Positions 1 to 64,000 of a stretch of 64,000 nucleotides of DNA are shown piece by piece. The stretch is from Qipengyuania vesicularis. Lineage in GTDB: Bacteria > Pseudomonadota > Alphaproteobacteria > Sphingomonadales > Sphingomonadaceae. The notes beneath the pieces were generated by a model that worked only from the letters and a program-made list of their open reading frames with translations, was not told the DNA's origin and did no database searches. The DNA lies in assembly GCF_019711415.1 (NCBI RefSeq), contig NZ_JAIGNJ010000002.1, forward strand, positions 558,001 through 622,000, in the 5' to 3' direction. The position numbers were made by a program, and so were the translations under genes. Within the stretch, counting starts at the first letter, position 1; the number at the start of each line of letters is the position of its first letter.

Positions 1-453
1 GGGACAGACGTATCGGGCAAGGCCATCGAACAGGCGCGCACAGGGATCTACTCGCAGTTCGAAATCCAGCGCGGAATTTCGGTTGCCCAGATGCTCAACT
101 TCTTCTCCGAGACCGGAAAGGGCTGGAAGGTGTCCGACCGTGTACTCGGCATGACCCGCTTCGAGCAGCGCAACATTCTGGACTTGCCGCCGCCTGGTCG
201 CTTCGACCTCGTCTTGTGCCGCAACTGCCTGCTCTATTTCGATCCCCAGACCCGCCGCGACGCCTTCGATCGGTTGGCTGGAGGCATTGCGCCTGACGGA
301 TTCCTCATGCTCGGCGCCGGTGAAACCGTCGTCGGGCAGACAGACAAGTTCGAACCCGCACCCTGCGGCTCGGCAATGTACCTGCCCAAAGTCGCCACCA
401 GCGCAGTGGGAGCGGTGCTTGGCGATTTCGCTCCGCGGGCCGCCACGGCCTGA
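1..453 (+). CDS. cheR: CheR-type chemoreceptor methyltransferase (3' part)
   Basis: The reading frame is open from the first base, so the gene begins before the window; about 150 C-terminal residues are visible. CheR uses S-adenosylmethionine to methylate glutamates on chemoreceptor signalling domains in the cytoplasm. Visible family features are the DVSGKAIEQAR stretch after the first methyltransferase strands and the FDLVLCRNCLLYFD segment with the conserved RN..IYF-like motif. A LMLGAGETV stretch follows near the end. Two chemoreceptor genes lie about 1.7 kb downstream on the same strand, which fits a chemotaxis operon extending upstream. The stop is at 451-453. The family call is firm; whether it is the only CheR of the cell cannot be known here. 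Confidence 0.9.
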   Translation, partial: GTDVSGKAIEQARTGIYSQFEIQRGISVAQMLNFFSETGKGWKVSDRVLGMTRFEQRNILDLPPPGRFDLVLCRNCLLYFDPQTRRDAFDRLAGGIAPDGFLMLGAGETVVGQTDKFEPAPCGSAMYLPKVATSAVGAVLGDFAPRAATA

Positions 454-5366: not shown

Positions 5367-8300
5367 TCACTCCCACCAATAGGGGAGGCGTCGCTCGTCG
5401 CCGGTCTCGACCTCGTTCATGGTGCTCGCATCGTAGAGGCGGCCGCCAATCATCACTTGCGCGATGTCGTCCGAATTGTGGATGTCCTCCGCAGGATCTG
5501 CCGTGAGGATCACGAGGTCCGCCAGCTTGCCGACCTCGAGGCTCCCGATGTCGCGCTCCATACCCAGCGACTTGGCCGGCTCTATCGTGCCAGCGCGCAG
5601 CGCTTCGACCGGAGACATGCCCCCGCGCGCAAAGCTCCACAGTTCCCAATGGGCCGCAATGCCCGGCTGCTGGCCATGCGCACCGATGCTGACCTTCACC
5701 CCCCGCTGCGCGAGCTTGCGCGCCTCCCTTGCCGAGTTGTCATCGACAAACGCCCAGTCGGGCGCCTTGGTCCGCCGGGCTGTCGATGCGAGAAGGATCT
5801 TGGGCGGAGTATGAACCAGCAGCGGATTGTCGAATACATCCGTCGCCTGGCGCCAATAGGGATCGGCCGCGAGACCTCCGTAGGTTACCGTCAGCGTCGG
5901 CGTATAGTTCGTGTCCGAACCGGCGAACATCTGCAGCACGTCCTCGTACATCACATCGACAGGGATGTTGTGTTCGAGAGTCGAATTGCCGTCGGCGATG
6001 AGGTTCATATCCATGCCGAAGAGCGAACCGCCTTCCGCGACCACAAGCATGTTCTCGGCCCGGGCCGCTGCAACGACCTGTTGTCGCTGTTCACGGCGAG
6101 GCTGGTTGTAGTTCTTGACGCTGATCCCGCCCTGCGCCTTGATCCGGCGAACATGGGCCAGCGCATCCTCGTAGCTGTCGATCCGAGCGTAGACGCTGGG
6201 TGCCTTGGCCCCGTAGATGATCTCGCCCGTCGAAAATATCCGCGGGGCGAGAAGGCTGCCTGCCTGTTGGCGCTCGGCGGCTGCGAAGATCATACTTGCC
6301 GAAGATGACGGGTCGTGGATCGTGGTGACGCCCATGGCGAGATCCTGCACCAACGACCAGTTCTGCTGCGGGATGAGATCGCCCGTCCCCTGCGGTCCAT
6401 GCGCGTGCGCATCGACAAGGCCGGGAATGATCGTGCGACCATTGGCCTCGACAACCGTGGCACCAGCAGGGATCTGGATCGAGGCAGCAGCCCCGATAGC
6501 TGCGATCCGGTCGCCTTCGATGACGATCGTGCCATTCTCGATCGTGCCCGAGCCGTCTCCCGCCATGCTGTGAATGCGCGCGCCCGTAATTGCCACGGTG
6601 CCTTCAGCCTTGTCGGCCCGGACGGTGCGGGCAAGCGACGTGCCCGTATCGGGCGGCGTGAAAGAAGGTGCCTCACTGCCGGGAGATGTCGGCGTAAGCG
6701 CGGAGGTGCTGGCTCGGTAGAGCACCGGACCCATAGACCAGTGGAGGGTCGAGCCGTTCTCCGCCCAGCCGATATAGTCCGCGCCGCCGGTGCTGACCTT
6801 GGTCACCGGTAGAGAACTCGCCTTCTCCCCCACCGTCACGGTCTGGCCGCCCGGAAGCAGGGGCATGGCAAAGACTTCGTAGTTCTGCCGGAATGCGACG
6901 TAGTCCCCGCGCGGAGAAACCCGGAAATCATTCGCCAGATCGCCTTGCGCATGGACCCGGCGCGCCTCGCCATCGAGGTCTGCCGAGATCAGCTGGAGGT
7001 TCCCGCCTTCCTGCGCGAGCATGAAGATGCGGTCGTCATCGGCACCGAATTGCGGCGTTGCCGTATCGCGCGCGACAAGCCTCGGCGAACCACCACTCGC
7101 CGCGATCGCGTAAACACCCTGATTCTCGGAGAACTCCGGTGAGGTAAGATAACCGCCTCCGCGTTTCTCGAAGACGATCGTGTCGCCATCGGGCGAGAAT
7201 TGCGGGACCGCATAGTGGCCCCGTTGACGCGTAACGGCTCTCTCGTTCCTGCCGCGCGCGTCGACCGTGACGATCTGCCCGAGCCCGTCGTCGGTCCAGC
7301 GTACGAAGGCGATGCGGCTGCCGTCGCGCGACCATGTCGGCCAAAGTTCCAGGCTGTCGCCGCCACCCGAGAGGAGGCGCTGCGGGGCGGAGCTGCGGCC
7401 GACCGGCTTGGTGTAAAGCTTGCCCATACTCTCGAACACCACCCGGCGCCCGTCGGGAGAGACGCTGGCGAAGCGCGGGATCTTGGTCGTGATGCTTTCC
7501 GGTGCGACTTCGATCACCGGATGCGGAGCTTCGGCGACCATGCGGCTGTCGGTGATGCGGAAGGGGATTTCCTGCGCACCGGACCCGTCGGCGGATACAC
7601 GGCGCAGCTTACCGCCGGCCCAAACGACCATGCTCTCGCCGTCCGGCATCCAATCCATCATCGGATAGACGCCATAGACCGCCCAGGTTTCCTGCAGATC
7701 GAGGTCGAGCGCGCCGTAGATCATGCGCTCTTCGCCAGTCGATATGTTCTTCACCCAGAGCTGCGACTGGTCCTTGTCGCGCCGCACGAAAGCGATGCTC
7801 TTGCCATCGGGCGAAGGCGTCGGCCGGACCGCGCCGCCAAAGCCGCCTACTGCCGTCGTTACCTCGCCCGTATCGATGTCGTAACGCTCGATATTGAACG
7901 TGCCCTGGGTCGAATCCTGCGCATAGATGAAGGTCGCACCGGGAGTGACGTTGCGGGTGTAGTAGATCGCGTTCCCGTCTGGCGCGTAGATCGGCTCGCC
8001 CAGCTCCTTCTGAACTGCCTCGCTGGCGCGCTTGACGAGTTGCACCCCGCCGCCACCGGACACGTGATAGAGCCAGATCTCGCCCGTGCCTGCACTGCGC
8101 TGCGTGGTGAAATGCTTCTTGGCGACGATATAGCGCCCGTCGGGCGACCAGCTGGGCTGGTTCAAGAGGCGAAAGTCCTCCTTCGTGACCTGCTGCTTGT
8201 CCGACCCGTCGGCATTCATGAGCCAGATATTGTCACCGCCCCCGCGGTCCGAGATGAAGGCGATCTTGGACCCGTCGGGCGAGAAGCGAGGCTGGATTTC

Positions 8301-57963: not shown

Positions 57964-58830
57964 ATGAAAATCGCCTTCATCGGCCTTGGCAACATGGGCG
58001 GCGGGATGGCCGCCAACCTCGTGAAGGTGGGGCACGAAGTGAACGCTTTCGACCTAAGCGAAGAGGCGCTTGCGACTGCCAAGACTAACGGCTGCGCGAC
58101 CTTCACCGATGCGGCGGAGGCCGTGCAGGGCGTCGATGGCGTGGTGACCATGCTCCCCAATGGTGGAATCGTGAAATCGGTCTACCAAGCCAGCGTGATC
58201 GGCAAGGCACCCGAAGGTGCTGTGCTGCTCGACTGCTCGACCATCGATGTCGCCACCGCCAAGGACGTTATCGCCAAGGCCGAAGCCTCCGGTTACGACA
58301 TGGTCGATGCTCCGGTCTCGGGCGGGATCGCGGCGGCCAACGGCGGGACGCTGACCTTCATGGTCGGCGGCACCGACAAGGCCTTCAAGCGCGCCGAGGG
58401 AGTGCTGGAAGCCATGGGCAAGGCCGTGATCCATTCGGGCGATGCAGGCGCGGGCCAGACCGCCAAGATCTGCAACAACATGCTGCTCGCCATCACCATG
58501 ATTGGCACGACCGAGGCGATGAAGATGGCCGAGAAGCTCGGCCTCGACCCGCAGAAGTTCTACGAGATCAGCTCGCAGTCGTCGGGCTATTGCTGGCCGC
58601 TCAATGCCTACACGCCGATGCCCGGGGTTGGCGTCGAAAGCCCTGCAGACAAGGACTACCAGGGCGGCTTTGCCACGGCGCTGATGCTCAAGGACCTGCG
58701 CCTCGCTATGGAGGCTGCGGACAGCGTCGACGCGAAGACCGCGCTTGGCCGTCACGCGACCGAAATCTACGAAGCCTTTGCCGAAGAGAATGGCGGGCTC
58801 GACTTCTCGGCGGTGATCAAGACGCTGTGA
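57964..58830 (+). CDS. mmsB: 3-hydroxyisobutyrate dehydrogenase
   Basis: 288 residues. FIGLGNMGGGMAANLVKVGH is the NAD site, DAPVSGGIAAANGGTL the substrate loop, and GAGQTAKICNNMLL carries the catalytic lysine (K168). It oxidises 3-hydroxyisobutyrate to methylmalonate semialdehyde, the substrate of mmsA at the start of this operon. GAGAGGAAAC lies before ATG 57964. It is the last gene; an A/T-rich hairpin follows. Confidence 0.95.
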   Translation: MKIAFIGLGNMGGGMAANLVKVGHEVNAFDLSEEALATAKTNGCATFTDAAEAVQGVDGVVTMLPNGGIVKSVYQASVIGKAPEGAVLLDCSTIDVATAKDVIAKAEASGYDMVDAPVSGGIAAANGGTLTFMVGGTDKAFKRAEGVLEAMGKAVIHSGDAGAGQTAKICNNMLLAITMIGTTEAMKMAEKLGLDPQKFYEISSQSSGYCWPLNAYTPMPGVGVESPADKDYQGGFATALMLKDLRLAMEAADSVDAKTALGRHATEIYEAFAEENGGLDFSAVIKTL

Positions 58831-58933
58831 TGGATATGAGGTGGTACCGCGCAGCTGCCCGGTAGGGCGACTGGCCGAAAGGCTCGAAGGCAACAACGCG
58901 ATACCGTGGACTGTTCTGACTCGCGAAGATTAA

Positions 58934-58960
58934 AAAATCCAGCCACAAATCTTGGATTTT
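58934..58960. terminator. hairpin between convergent mmsB and Nmad3-like gene
   Basis: AAAATCCA (58934-58941) pairs with TGGATTTT (58953-58960) around an 11-base loop, with A's before and T's after, so it may act on both strands. The stem is A/T-rich and weak. Confidence 0.5.
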
Positions 58961-58966
58961 CCTGAA

Positions 58967-59698
58967 TTATTTCCGCAATGCCGCGAGAGTTTGCGCCAGC
59001 CATTCCCTCGGGTGGCGGCGCGATCCGATATCCGCCACGAACTCTTGCCCTCGCGCAACGCTTCGCAATCTGCTGCCGGAAAGCCAGCGATCTGGGCGGT
59101 CGTGATAGCTAAGGCCGCCTCTCCTCAGCCAGCCTGGACGGCGCCAGAGACTCGGTGGGCCGCCCGGAACGGTGAGCCGGAGGCTTTTCGGGGCGCGTGA
59201 CGCCGCAAGTCCTGAGCCGATATAGAGGCAATCGTTGGTCCCGTGCATTTGCAGGGCATGCGGGTGGCCAAGATCGCGAAAGCCATCTCGTTCAGGCCCG
59301 GCGCAGCTATCGAGATGCACCACTCGCTCGATCTCGAGACAGCCAAAGATCCGGTGATGCGGTTCGCCGCTTTCTTCCTCACGGAACAGACCGAAGAAGA
59401 GGAAGACGTCCCCAACCCCGACACCCTGATTGGCCAGATGTGTTTGCGCCGCGCCTACCTGTCCAAACACGCAGGTGCCGTCGTCCAGGAACATCGGGTC
59501 GTGATGGCAAGGGTCATTCTCTCCGAGCCTCCCGCGACTGGCGACAGCCGCGTGATCGCCGAGGCCCAGGTCGCCGTAAGTGGTCCGCGAAGCAACGCCA
59601 GCCGGAATCGGCAGGCTGATCGGCTTGCCGTCCACGATCGGAGACGCGCCGCCGCCTGCCGCGCTGTCGAAGCCCTTGCGGCTGAAGACGATCTTCAT
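58967..59698 (-). CDS. Nmad3-like protein (nucleotide-modification associated)
   Basis: 243 residues. MKIVFSRKGFDSAAGGGASP at the start, GKPISLPIP, TYGDLGLG, CHHDP, FGQVGAAQTHLANQGVGVGD and FLFFGLFR follow in the order I associate with Nmad3, a domain predicted to take part in phage and bacterial nucleotide modification. GQEFVADIG near the end also fits. No reaction is established and no catalytic residues can be named safely. It lies 18 bases after gcvPB on the same strand, so it is probably the last gene of the glycine-cleavage operon. The opposite-strand reading at 59243-59833 is a shadow. Family call from memory, moderately sure. Confidence 0.65.
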   Translation of the reverse strand: MKIVFSRKGFDSAAGGGASPIVDGKPISLPIPAGVASRTTYGDLGLGDHAAVASRGRLGENDPCHHDPMFLDDGTCVFGQVGAAQTHLANQGVGVGDVFLFFGLFREEESGEPHHRIFGCLEIERVVHLDSCAGPERDGFRDLGHPHALQMHGTNDCLYIGSGLAASRAPKSLRLTVPGGPPSLWRRPGWLRRGGLSYHDRPDRWLSGSRLRSVARGQEFVADIGSRRHPREWLAQTLAALRK

Positions 59699-59715
59699 GT
59701 CCGCATGAGGCAGGC

Positions 59716-61323
59716 TTACCGCCCGCCCTGCTCGCTCATCGTCGGCGTGCCACCGGGAGGGTTCGGCTCTTCCCAGGCGAGGATCGGTTTGCGGGCTGCC
59801 AGCGTCTCGTCGAGCCTGCGGCGCGGCGCGTAGTGCGGCGCGGTCTTGAGTCTCTCGTCCCCCGCCCGCGCCCGCTCTGCCACGCTGCGCAGGGCGCCGA
59901 TGAACTGGTCCAGCGCCGCCTTGCTCTCGGTCTCGGTCGGTTCAACCAGCATCGCGCCATGCACCACCAGCGGGAAGTACATGGTCATGGGATGGTAGCC
60001 CTCGTCGATAAGCGCCTTGGCGAGGTCGAGCGTCGAGATGTCCTCGGCAAAGCCCTTATCGCTGAACAGCGCCTCATGCATGCAGGGCCCGCTGTGGCCG
60101 AAAGGCGCATCGAGCACATCTTCGAGGCTGCGCAGGATGTAGTTGGCGTTGAGCACCGCGTCTTCTGCCACCTGCCGCAGACCATCCGCGCCATGGCTGA
60201 GGATATAGGTCAGCGCGCGGGTGAACATGCCCATCTGCCCGTGGAACGCCGTCATGCGGCCGAAGGCCTTTGTGTGCTCGAACTCGCCCGCGTTCTCTTC
60301 CTCGACGAGATGCACCTCGCCGTCCTTGCCGCGCACCACGTAAGGAAGCGGACCATAGGGTGCGAGCGCTTCGGACAGCACCACCGGACCAGAACCCGGA
60401 CCGCCACCGCCATGCGGGGTTGAGAAGGTCTTGTGGAGGTTGATGTGCATCGCATCGACGCCGAGGTCGCCGGGCCGGACCTTGCCGACAATGGCGTTGA
60501 AGTTCGCACCGTCGCAATAGACGAAGCCGCCCGCTGCGTGGACCGCGTCGGAGATTTCCTTGAGGTCGCGCTCGAACAGGCCGAGCGTCGAGGGGTTGGT
60601 GATCATCACGCCTGCGACATCGGGGCCAAGACGCGACTTGAGTGCATCGAGGTCGACGCGGCCATCGCTGTTGGCGGGGATGTCCTCGATCTTGTATCCG
60701 GCGAAGGCGGCAGTGGCGGGGTTGGTGCCATGCGCGCTTTCGGGCACGAGGATGACTTCGCGCGCATCGCCGCGTGCTTCGAGAGCGGCGCGGATGCAGA
60801 GGATGCCGCATAACTCGCCATGCGCGCCCGCCTTGGGGCTCATCGCGACGCCGTGCATGCCGGTGAGGTCGATTAGCCAGTTGGCAAGTTCGTTCACGAC
60901 TTCGAGCGCGCCCTTGACCGTGTCGACAGGCTGCAACGGGTGCACGTCGGCAAAGCCGGGCATCCGCGCGACCTTCTCGTTGAGGCGCGGGTTGTGCTTC
61001 ATCGTGCACGAACCGAGCGGGAAGAGGCCGAGGTCGATGGCATAGTTCTGGCGGGAAAGGCGCGTGTAGTGACGCACGGTTTCCGGTTCGGAGAGGCCGG
61101 GCAGGCCGATGGTCTCGGAACGGTCGAGGCCGCCGAGGCGGTCCGCGCCGCCCGATGGCTCGGGCAGGTCCACGCCGGTCGTCTCGATCGTGCCGATTTC
61201 GAAGATCAGCGGCTCCTCGAGCATCAGTGCGCGATTGCCGGTGACGGTGTCGGGGCCGCTCATCGCATTGTGGTCCTGAACAGGGCTGCCGGGCTTCCAG
61301 CCGGACTGGTTCGGAGTGCTCAT
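59716..61323 (-). CDS. gcvPB: glycine dehydrogenase (decarboxylating) subunit 2
   Basis: 535 residues. The PLP lysine is K298 in [34 protein letters not shown] and [16 protein letters not shown] are typical. With subunit 1 it decarboxylates glycine and passes aminomethyl to the lipoyl arm of GcvH. ATG 61323 overlaps the gcvPA stop (ATGA). Split P-protein genes are common in alphaproteobacteria and firmicutes. Confidence 0.96.
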
Positions 61324-62687
61324 GCCAGCACCTCCTTCAGCGCGGAGACGAGGGTTTCGATGTCCTCCTCGGTGGTGGTCTCGGTGACCGCGACAATGAG
61401 GCCATCGGCCAGTTCATCATGCTCCGGGAAGAGGCGACCGAGCGACACGCCGGCGAGCACATTGTCCTTGGCCAGCTTGCGGACCACGGCGCGGGCATCG
61501 GTGCCGAGGCGGATGGTGAACTCGTTGAAGAAGCTGTCGTTGAGCACCGAGACACCCCGCACTTCGGCCAATCTGTCGGCGGCAAGGCAGGCGAGGCGAT
61601 GGTTCTCCGCCGCTAGCTGGCGCAGGCCCTTCTCGCCCAGCAGCGTCATGTGGACGCTGAACGCCAGCGCGCAGAGGCCCGAGTTGGTGCAGATGTTTGA
61701 AGTCGCCTTCTCGCGGCGGATATGCTGCTCGCGGGTCGAGAGCGTCAGCACGTAGCCGCGCTTGCCTTCCGCATCCTGCGTTTCGCCGCACAGGCGGCCC
61801 GGCATCATGCGGACATGCTTGGGGTCGCGCACCGCGAAAAGACCGAGATAGGGTCCGCCGAACTGCAGGCCGACGCCAATCGACTGGCCCTCGCCCACGA
61901 CGATATCCGCGCCCTGCTCACCCGGCGACTTGATCGCTCCCAGGGCCACCGGCTCGGTGTTGACGACGATCAGCAGGGCGCCTTTTTCATGCGCGGCATC
62001 GGCGATCGGCTGGAGGTCGGTCACGCGCCCGAGGATGTCGGGATATTGCACCACCACGCAGCTCGTGTCGCCGTCGATGCGGGAGATTAGTCCGGCAGTG
62101 TCGGGAGCTGCTGTCATCGCCGGCTTGGCGTGGGCAATCTCGTCATCAGTGAACTTCGCCATGGTCTTCACGACCTCGGCATAATGCGGGTGCAGCGCGC
62201 CCGAGAGCACGACCTTGCGCTTCTTGCCGCGGGCGATGCGGCTCGCCATTGCAACCGCTTCCCAGCAAGCGGTCGAGCCGTCGTACATCGAGGCATTGGC
62301 CACCGCGCAGCCATAGAGATGTGCAACCTGGCTCTGGAACTCGAACAGCATCTGCAGCGTGCCCTGCGCGATTTCCGGCTGGTAGGGCGTGTAGGCGGTC
62401 AGGAACTCGCCGCGCTGGATGATGTGGTCGACGCTCGCCGGGACATGGTGCTTGTACGCCCCCGCGCCGAGGAAAAAGGCCGCATCCGAAGCCGCGAGGT
62501 TCTTCTTCGACAGAGTACGCATATGCTTCTCGACTGCCATTTCGCTGGCATGCATCGGCAGGCCTTGGATCGGCCCGTCGAGCCGTGCTTCCTCGGGCAC
62601 ATCGACAAACAGCGCGTCCACATCGGGCGCACCGATTTTCTCAAGCATTGCCGAACGGTCGGCGTCAGTCAGGGGTAGGTAGCGCAT
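61320..62687 (-). CDS. gcvPA: glycine dehydrogenase (decarboxylating) subunit 1
   Basis: 455 residues from ATG 62687 ([15 protein letters not shown]), the usual subunit 1 start; the frame is open upstream only through the spacer. [52 protein letters not shown] and [18 protein letters not shown] are conserved. It forms the alpha2beta2 P-protein with gcvPB, which follows with overlap. Confidence 0.96.
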
Positions 62688-62710: not shown

Positions 62711-63085
62711 TTAGTCGGCTCTGCCGAGGAGGATAGGGTTTGCAAGCGCATCCCCTCTGTCCGAACAAAGGGAGATGATGACATCGTATTCTAAGTCGAA
62801 GCATCGCCCGGTGAAAACGGCTCGAATTATCACTTTTTGACCATCGAGCGTGGCGACTGACTTGTCGAATTCTGGCGAGGCTCCAATAGCTAATCCATCG
62901 TCGCCTTCTGTTATCGCGCAGCCGCGCGGAAGACATCGTGTTAGCTCTCCGGTGACAGTGACCTCGCGTCCTATCAGCTCACGAGCATTCTCACGGACTT
63001 GGGAAACTGTCAGGGGGACGGTTGCGACTGGTCGAGCCACGCATCCGCAACTAAGGAGTGCAAGGGCTAAGACCAGAAACCGCAT
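62711..63085 (-). CDS. small lipoprotein-like protein within the gcv operon
   Basis: 124 residues. The N-terminus [15 protein letters not shown] is a signal sequence with a cysteine-containing end, likely a lipoprotein. The mature part [20 protein letters not shown], then [18 protein letters not shown], looks like an OB-fold (tOB-type) small domain with a cysteine pair. ATG 63085 overlaps the gcvH stop as TGATG, so it is translated with gcvH, and gcvPA follows after 23 bases. A/T content is higher than neighbours. Function unknown. Confidence 0.68.
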
Positions 63086-63456
63086 CAAAGCCCGTCGCAG
63101 AAGCTCTTGTAGGCCTTGTCGTCCATCAGTCCTTCGAGTTCGGACTTGTCGGAGACGGTCATCTTGAAGAACCAGCCGTCTTCCTCGGGCGAGGAATTGA
63201 CCAGTGCCGGGTCGTCCTCAAGGCCGTCGTTCACTTCGACCACTTCGCCCGAAAGCGGGGCGTAGACGTCGCTCGCGGCCTTGACGCTTTCGACCACGGC
63301 GGCGTCCTTGCCCTTTTCGACCATGGTGCCGACGTCGGGCAATTCGACGAAGACGATGTCGCCCAGCTGGCCTTGCGCGTAATCGGTAATGCCAACCGTG
63401 GCAGTATCGCCTTCGAGGTCGATCCATTCGTGTTCATCGGTGAAATAACGGGCCAT
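63085..63456 (-). CDS. gcvH: glycine cleavage system H protein
   Basis: 123 residues. [20 protein letters not shown] begins the lipoyl domain and [20 protein letters not shown] carries the lipoylated K59. It shuttles the aminomethyl group among P, T and L proteins. ATG 63456 lies 4 bases after the gcvT stop. Confidence 0.97.
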
Positions 63457-63460
63457 CAGG

Positions 63461-64000
63461 TCACTTCCCTCTGTAGTAGCGGTTGGGGACGAAGGGCATC
63501 GTTGCGACCTTCGCAGACAGTCTCTTGTTACGAACCTCGACTTCGAGTTCGGTTCCCTCCTGGGTGAGCTCGGTATCGATATAAGCCATGGCGATCGGGC
63601 GCTCGAGCGTGGGCGAGAAGCCGCCGCTGGTGACGCGTCCGACTTGGCTGTCGCCCGAGTAGACGAGCGCGCCTTCGCGAGCCGGCATGCGGCCTTCGAT
63701 CTCAAGACCGACGCGCTTCTGCTTCGGGCCCTCGGCGAGAACCTTGGCGACCGCCTCATGACCCATCCAGCCGCCTTCCTCGCGGCGCTTCTTCGTCAGC
63801 GCGAACAGCAGGTCTGCGGAGACCGGGTCGGTCGCCTCGGTGATGTCGTGGCCGTAGAGAGGTAGCCCAGCTTCGAGGCGCAGGCTGTCGCGTGCGCCGA
63901 GGCCGATGGGGCGCACTTCGATTTCGGCGCACAGCCTGTCGGCGAGGCTCTCTGCGTGTTCCGCGGGCACCGAAATCTCGAACCCGTCTTCGCCGGTATA
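63461..64000 (-). CDS. gcvT: aminomethyltransferase, glycine cleavage T protein (3' part)
   Basis: The frame runs off the window; 179 C-terminal residues are visible. [37 protein letters not shown] and, in the last domain, [20 protein letters not shown] are T-protein hallmarks. It releases ammonia and makes methylene-tetrahydrofolate from the GcvH-bound group. A glycine riboswitch, if present, would be upstream beyond the window. Confidence 0.95.

Follow-up and report, generated by a model that had tools for sequence, protein, structure and literature searches.

The 64,000-nucleotide stretch of Qipengyuania vesicularis DNA analyzed here (hereafter, the window) ends in genes of the glycine-cleavage system, and a gene encoding an Nmad3-like protein lies directly behind them. 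The question raised by this locus is whether the function of the gene can be read from its position or has to be sought in the protein itself. The names of the Nmad families, reportedly defined in Iyer et al. 2013, signal only an association with nucleotide modification. The literature search, which did not cover this founding paper, found no tested function of Nmad3 and no paper joining glycine cleavage, gcvP, operon and nucleotide modification.

The Nmad3 gene and its linkage to the glycine-cleavage genes

The gene order around Nmad3 is given in Table 1. According to the Pfam HMM search, the product of the ORF, which starts with ATG, matches the Nmad3 profile PF18754 with 243.5 bits (cut-off 27) and E 3.4e-72 over profile positions 1–247 of 247. 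This full-length match above the curated cut-off places the protein in the Nmad3 family, where the earlier note had correctly put it, and the invariant positions of the family are present. Pfam indicated no nuclease or effector domain in the window protein, NCBIfam gave no match at E up to 1, and the window's genome contains one Nmad3 match. The ORF is not a chance frame, because it shares 63–76% identity with the Nmad3 frame of 56 other loci and dN/dS of Nmad3 is 0.08–0.23 (13 pairs in all three gene contexts described below; dS is 1.3–2.5 in the three pairs involving the window copy). Thus, Nmad3 is under purifying selection, which is alike in every context.

Table 1. Genes and intergenic gap at the Nmad3 locus of the window
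Feature	Position in the window	Strand	Basis and remarks
3-Hydroxyisobutyrate-dehydrogenase-type gene, convergent	57964..58830	+	NAD_binding_2 / NAD_binding_11; 136 bases from Nmad3
Nmad3 gene	58967..59698	-	Pfam PF18754, AlphaFold2 model and VIA matches; 243 aa, predicted PUA/EVE/YTH-like fold
Gap between gcvPB stop and Nmad3 start	59699..59715	-	17 bases; by eye, no obvious Shine-Dalgarno sequence
gcvPB, glycine dehydrogenase subunit 2	59716..61323	-	NF003346, 685 bits; positional neighbor, not judged a functional partner
gcvPA, glycine dehydrogenase subunit 1	61320..62687	-	NF001696, 606 bits; start from the codon-score caller (ORF list: 62936)
gcvH, 123 aa	63085..63456	-	NF002270, 177 bits; start from the codon-score caller
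gcvT, 3' (C-terminal) part, cut by the window end	63461..64000	-	GCV_T_C, E 2.9e-26; GCV_T, E 1.7e-15

The tight co-directional placement behind gcvPB described previously was confirmed, with a gap one base shorter than the 18 bases reported. On the other side, the convergent dehydrogenase-type gene bounds the Nmad3 site, on its right, in many loci of the Erythrobacteraceae. A crude consensus scan of positions 58700–60300 detected no sigma-70-like promoter, and a terminator scan detected one terminator-like site, on the opposite strand inside the Nmad3 gene, a number equal to the chance expectation. GC3 of the Nmad3 gene is 0.70 versus 0.82–0.84 in three neighboring genes; together with the failure of the codon-score caller to find the gene, this may reflect low expression or a foreign past. 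A lipoprotein-like ORF of 125 aa with a sub-threshold DUF5818 match is located between gcvH and gcvPA (62711–63088, minus strand); it was left uncalled by the same caller and may not be a gene.

The gene order was compared in 81 loci, namely the window and the best 80 of 495 confirmed relatives, a set heavy in Erythrobacteraceae. Neighboring genes were predicted with our own codon-score caller, so that some small neighbors may be wrong, and Pfam names were given to only some of them. Since the caller missed the Nmad3 gene of the window, Nmad3 was placed in the locus maps by its tblastn position. A gcvP gene was found directly upstream of Nmad3 and co-directional with it in 15 of the 81 loci. 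In 29 loci, gcvP is located within six genes with others intervening, and the nearest neighbor of Nmad3 is antisense in 27 of these, being a flippase-like or a MobA-like nucleotidyltransferase gene, and co-directional in two. No gcvP was present within six genes in 35 loci, eight of them on short contigs, while the remaining two could not be judged, having no upstream gene on the contig. An antisense gene between gcvPB and Nmad3 means that Nmad3 is not simply readable from the gcv promoter there. Many Erythrobacteraceae contain an antisense two-gene cassette at this place (L068–L127, e.g., L084:7839-9935), encoding a flippase-like Polysacc_synt protein and a MobA-like nucleotidyltransferase; it is absent in other Erythrobacteraceae loci, including the window.

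Because the 81-locus set was heavy in Erythrobacteraceae, a second sample of 21 Nmad3-containing genomes of the window's family was drawn, one per genus (21 of the 36 positive genera in list order). In this sample, gcvPB was located within 100 bases of Nmad3 in three genomes (G066, G069, G101) and within 3 kb in seven (G062, G064, G079, G097, G114, G118, G122); in 11 it was far off, on another contig, or below the cut-off. In a tree of the 81 proteins, constructed by a quick method, the three gcv contexts need at least 12 changes, the adjacent state 8, with at least 3 forced by the starred branches; these counts leave out of account 10 of 81 rows without a state (2 without an upstream gene and 8 on short contigs) and cannot separate gain from loss. 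The gcv-adjacent rows nevertheless group together on the tree (none of 500 shuffles gave so low a count), as would be expected for inherited synteny. The frequency of gcvPB above the cut-off was similar in Nmad3-positive and Nmad3-negative genomes (26 of 29 and 19 of 21, respectively; Fisher p = 1.0), and three genomes (G073, G424, G1243) contain Nmad3 with gcvPB not above the cut-off.

Thus, the survey of gcv neighborhoods proposed in the earlier note showed that the linkage is not conserved, and the tight linkage typical of an operon member was found in only 15 of the 81 loci and 3 of the 21 genera. Nmad3 does not need the gcv neighborhood, since the linkage is often broken, the presence of gcvPB is independent of Nmad3, and dN/dS is alike in all contexts. 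The position of Nmad3, with gcvPB on one side and the convergent dehydrogenase gene on the other, is a synteny shared by part of the Erythrobacteraceae, and its proximity to the glycine genes seems to be a local coincidence and not a clue to its function. Where intervening genes are absent, as in the window, putative co-transcription of Nmad3 with gcv is plausible. Within Erythrobacteraceae there may also be a mild regulatory link to gcv, because gcvP is common near Nmad3 there, being located within six genes in 44 of the same 81 loci.

Distribution of Nmad3 and its recurring neighbor Nmad2

Of 37 genus members examined, the window's genome among them, 34 contain Nmad3, as do 80 of 298 family members; none of 24 genomes from other families within the order has it. 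Among genomes drawn across the class and the phylum, 11 of 385 and 9 of 398 contained it, respectively. Nmad3 was also found in 7 of 321 genomes of the class of G424 and in 1 of 48 genomes of the order of G361 (the samples overlap); 14 control genomes had none. The family is patchy overall and steady in the window's genus. One same-family match (G067:C1:930424-930990) contains two internal stop codons and is apparently decayed; the genome in question is 86% complete with 7% contamination.

A collection of 50,697 phage records contained no Nmad3 match, and phage origin of the window copy was rejected; relatives are carried by 11 IMG/VR contigs. The viral label of one of these, IMGVR_UViG_2831900202_000008 (L144), is doubtful because its length and match position are identical to those of the host contig L135 of Roseisalinus antarcticus. 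In the plasmid collection, two Nmad3 matches were found, both in large Burkholderiaceae replicons in which the stretch is unannotated.

The one neighbor found to recur across distant lineages is a gene of the Nmad2 family (PF18753), which directly adjoins Nmad3 in nine loci in both gene orders. It precedes Nmad3 in G361, G424, G1169, and the viral contig L151, and follows it in L135, L136, G790, L129, and L201, where it is short. In reading this number, it should be considered that the tree shows L129 and L136 to be closely related, that the Nmad2 match of L151 is barely above the cut-off (27.3 vs. 26.1 bits), and that in G1169 Nmad3 is matched only in part (positions 1–186) and was missed by our own profile search. 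Among 18 Nmad3 genomes, including the window's, Nmad2 was present in four and adjacent in all four; G790 contains an Nmad2 fragment elsewhere besides the adjacent copy. In the 398 phylum genomes, Nmad3 was found in nine, Nmad2 in five, and both in two (Fisher p 0.004). Nmad2 occurred without Nmad3 in three of its five genomes, and each of the two genes also occurs alone. A search of viral contigs for more Nmad2 sequences yielded one locus, on the same contig as L144. The window's genome contains no Nmad2, and the Nmad2–Nmad3 pair does not occur there.

Elsewhere, the genes that Nmad3 follows or faces are unrelated to one another. They include purK, ubiA, and a HAD hydrolase gene; ATP12, a PIN-domain gene, and a CcmH/CycH-like TPR gene; a metallo-beta-lactamase-fold gene with a dCTP-deaminase-like gene beyond; an NAD-binding gene with an HD-domain gene before and a ribBA-type gene after it; and a class-II tRNA-synthetase-like gene behind an EF-P-like gene (the latter by eye). 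In Pontixanthobacter rizhaonensis (L073:9052-9981), Nmad3 starts 19 bases behind the CcmH/CycH-type TPR gene. Bell et al. 2020 (PMC7641849) describe cytochrome c biogenesis clusters beside true EVE genes in Sphingomonadales; no EVE genes were found in the Nmad3 loci searched with the EVE profile. In G720, an AP_endonuc_2 gene (endonuclease IV by sequence) lies 40 bases upstream of Nmad3. On viral contigs, the neighbors are a DNA N6/N4 methylase with ParB_N 146 bases upstream (L147), a gene with a start like that of this methylase 88 bases upstream (L149), genes of a HARE-HTH protein and a UvrD-type helicase (L148), site-specific recombinases (L150), a phage capsid gene (L143), and Nmad2 with DUF1643 (L151). 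On the viral contig L145, the end of Nmad3 shares 8 bases with a 210-aa ORF (5590-6222) for which Pfam gave no match at E up to 0.01.

Predicted fold and conserved positions of Nmad3

3D modeling of Nmad3 using AlphaFold2 with 12 sequences gave a model with pLDDT 92 and pTM 0.90. VIA-align analysis of the Foldseek candidates showed that 49 of the 50 PDB entries listed belong to the PUA-like superfamily, namely, 11 of EVE/DUF55 type, 32 YTH, 4 ASCH, and 2 McrB-N. Since the 32 YTH entries represent few proteins, the list holds fewer independent matches than its 50 rows imply. The best match was with 2p5d (Z 8.8, 137 residues, 4.3 A; model range 1..240), followed by 2hd9 and 1wmm (Z 8.6), the EVE-HNH nuclease VcaM4I (7.1), YTH entries (up to 6.6), McrB-N of T. 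gammatolerans (6.5), ASCH (6.2), and THYN1 with 5mC DNA (6.0); only three chains among the 50 matches listed reach Z 8 or above, and according to the program's own note, best Z of 7–8 is common for relative-less models and Z below 8 can reflect a common arrangement. We take 2p5d, 2hd9, 1wmm, 2ar1, 1zce, 2gbs, and 2g2x to be EVE/DUF55 structures, 4r3h to be a YTH structure, and PF04146 to be the YTH profile.

The fold comparison covered two models, those of Nmad3 and Nmad2. The latter is weaker (pLDDT 76.7), and 48 of its 50 matches listed are YTH, EVE, ASCH, or McrB-N entries, with YTH the best (Z 7.5) and none at Z 8 or above; the other two are DrmAB. The remaining row of the Nmad3 list is likewise DrmAB of the DISARM system (PDB 7s9v/7s9w chain A, residues 13-129, Z 6.0), and the start of this chain is what the Nmad2 model matches (Z 6.1 and 5.9). 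This suggests that the chain start of DrmAB holds a PUA/YTH-like domain.

Other searches detected no significant similarity. Foldseek gave a best E of 0.046 for the Nmad3 model with probability of at most 0.47 among the 50 matches listed, the BFVD fold search a best E of 0.043, and the profile search of PDB sequences one chance match (E 2). The hhalign comparison of 29 Nmad3 with 10 EVE sequences was not significant (P 0.26), its best, non-significant, patch being AxxxL..GDxxFF. The profiles of Nmad3 and Nmad2 showed no significant similarity either, though the models give the same fold family. Since Pfam found no EVE, YTH, or ASCH match in the window protein at E up to 1 and the sequence profiles lend homology no support, membership in EVE (PF01878) was rejected and membership in YTH was not found by sequence similarity; what is claimed is the fold, and the protein is placed in the PUA-like superfamily by its predicted fold only.

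The model consists of strand 2–7, helix 47–53, strand 75–80, helix 82–90, strands 98–107, 113–128, 157–165, and 219–223, and helix 228–242. Paired by eye, the order of these elements follows that of EVE, and the EVE stretch WDGVRNxxAxNN..GDxxFFYHS falls on FGQxGAAQxHL..GDxFLFFG of Nmad3, the same patch that scored best, without significance, in the hhalign comparison. The uniform match list and the EVE-like element order favor the PUA-like reading, and the model matches a PUA-like superfamily fold nearest to EVE and YTH. The structure prediction proposed previously gave a confident model with the fold of base-binding pockets, and we read Nmad3 as a pocket protein and not as a glycine-using modification enzyme.

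Nmad3 differs from EVE proteins (PSPTO5229/2eve, PH1033, THYN1, VcaM4I N-terminus), to which its structural matches are best, in being longer (243 aa vs. about 140 aa), in lacking the EVE W/VRN motif, and in having extra conserved stretches with H65-x-D67 and H147; a true EVE gene sits separately in the window's genome. The likeness to YTH, the m6A readers, is one of fold, and YTH is also the best match of the partner Nmad2.

Conservation was assessed in a chosen 29-row alignment, in which 27 columns are invariant; a motif filter had removed L158, L159, L160, and L166 beforehand. In a recount without the filter (151 distinct rows, profile matches at E up to 1e-5), 22 of these 27 columns stay invariant: S6, R7, K8, G9, D11, G15, P30, I31, P32, H65, D67, P68, G79, Q80, L88, D97, F99, G103, H115, H147, W185, and Q218. 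The others are F10 (148 rows; replaced by L in L158-L160), G24 (146), F101 (150), H145 (147), and E219 (150). The near-invariant motifs SRKGFD (6–11), GQ (79–80), FxFxG (99–103), and QE (218–219) are located at the end of strand 1, before helix 82–90, in the FFG strand, and in the last strand, respectively. In the model, these positions correspond in order to the places of the EVE base pocket. In VcaM4I, the residues P24, W82, and Y130 hold the flipped base (PMC7897488). H65-x-D67 and H147 are located in stretches unmatched to EVE, and together with H115 they may mark a catalytic or metal site. The density of these invariant polar residues exceeds what a plain reader needs, which hints at an enzyme.

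Possible functions of Nmad3

Taken together, the best explanation, with a probability of about 0.6, is that Nmad3 is a PUA-like reader with a base pocket, perhaps also an actor, which is independent of glycine and owes its place to synteny. Nmad3 would be a single-domain PUA-like protein, nearest to EVE and YTH, and a modified base or nucleoside would be gripped in the predicted pocket formed by SRKGFD, GQ, FxFxG, and QE. The EVE-like order of fold elements in which the pocket motifs stand suggests that the most likely role of the protein is to read a modified base or nucleotide, with or without acting on it, and that glycine is not turned into the modification by Nmad3. Some distant lineages encode it beside Nmad2, whose predicted fold is the same. 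In the window, Nmad3 is probably carried on the gcv transcript. The family, the predicted fold, the loose and repeatedly altered gcv linkage, the purifying selection, and the adjacency to Nmad2 were established computationally; pocket use, class of ligand, activity, and co-transcription in the window are all inferred. A reader and an eraser are both possible, and reading of a modified base is the safer statement.

Less probably, the PUA-like scaffold of Nmad3 serves catalysis, and the protein is an eraser or a salvage hydrolase by which a modified nucleoside is removed or degraded, in the way that the ASCH amidohydrolase YqfB acts on N4-acetylcytidine; a candidate metal may be bound via H65, D67, H115, and H147. 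The study of YqfB (PMC6972931) indicates that the superfamily can hold nucleoside hydrolases; this PUA-like protein acts on a modified nucleoside and also has dense conserved polar residues, including the Lys-Thr-Glu triad with Arg (Lys21, Thr24, Arg26, Glu74). In Nmad3, the invariance of S6, R7, K8, D11 and the four candidate metal residues, the near-invariance of E219, the place of H65/D67 and H147 outside the EVE-matched elements, and the endonuclease IV neighbor in G720 are consistent with such a role. However, this neighbor was seen once, H145 is replaced in 4 of 151 rows, EDTA had no effect on YqfB according to the same study, and YqfB is only 103 aa long with other motifs, its catalytic positions not corresponding to those of Nmad3 by eye. 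It is rather unlikely that Nmad3, with or without Nmad2, serves as a sensor of modified phage DNA in a defense system. The gene contents of viral contigs (methylase, HARE-HTH protein with helicase, recombinases, Nmad2 with DUF1643) fit a defense role; EVE and McrB-N relatives serve modification-dependent restriction, as stated for VcaM4I in PMC7897488; and figure legends of the DefensePredictor study (PMC13092281) name an unnumbered NMAD domain in validated and predicted systems. Yet the passages of that study do not specify which NMAD is meant, and the window protein, with no nuclease or effector domain, had no PADLOC match at E up to 0.1, two distant Nmad3 proteins giving weak matches (E 0.04 and 0.011). 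Moreover, many chromosomal copies lie beside ordinary genes (gcvPB, purK, ubiA, ATP12, CcmH-like), and presence in nearly all genomes of the genus is steadier than expected of a defense gene.

The proposal of the earlier note, that Nmad3 as the last gene of the gcv operon draws on glycine or one-carbon folate units to modify a nucleotide or tRNA, is very unlikely. It agrees with the 17-base co-directional gap in the window and with the 15 loci in which gcvP is directly upstream; however, the arrangement is missing or cannot be shown in the other 66 of the 81 loci (window and best 80 of 495 relatives), the contexts changed at least 12 times on the tree, gcvPB is equally frequent without Nmad3 and falls below the cut-off in three genomes with Nmad3, and the predicted fold is that of a base-binding pocket. 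With a linkage that is lineage-bound and often broken, the glycine or one-carbon link was rejected as the main reading, and the suggested functional connection to glycine cleavage is not supported. The patchy presence across the phylum, the frequent changes of place on the tree, and the lower GC3 would also suit a passenger gene with no selected role. This is hardly credible: the low dN/dS in all three contexts, the 22 columns invariant in 151 rows, and the retention of the gene in 34 of 37 genus genomes have largely refuted it.

The window protein belongs to a known Pfam family, for which the analysis gives a predicted fold and, in other genomes, a partner, Nmad2. The pairing resembles the (PIN)-GNAT-EVE plus ASCH two-reader operons treated in Bell et al. 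2020 (PMC7641849), where EVE gene contexts including EVE-ASCH pairs are described: in both cases two PUA-like proteins are encoded together, for Nmad2–Nmad3 in some genomes. A word search of the main text of that paper found neither Nmad nor gcv. As a speculation that we regard as doubtful, Nmad2 and Nmad3 may form an undescribed two-protein system, both with YTH/EVE-type pockets, in which the extra site of Nmad3 (H65-x-D67, H115, H147) would give it catalytic activity toward a modified base or nucleoside. In genomes like the window's, Nmad3 would then work alone, as an eraser or a salvage enzyme, and elsewhere within a reader-eraser pair.

The results remove a misleading metabolic lead to glycine cleavage. 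By placing Nmad3 and, less firmly, Nmad2 among base-pocket domains, the fold prediction turns the family name into a concrete and cheap question, namely, which modified nucleoside is bound or converted. If Nmad3 is an eraser, its steady retention in the genus would be a sign that these bacteria have a nucleotide modification not yet known.
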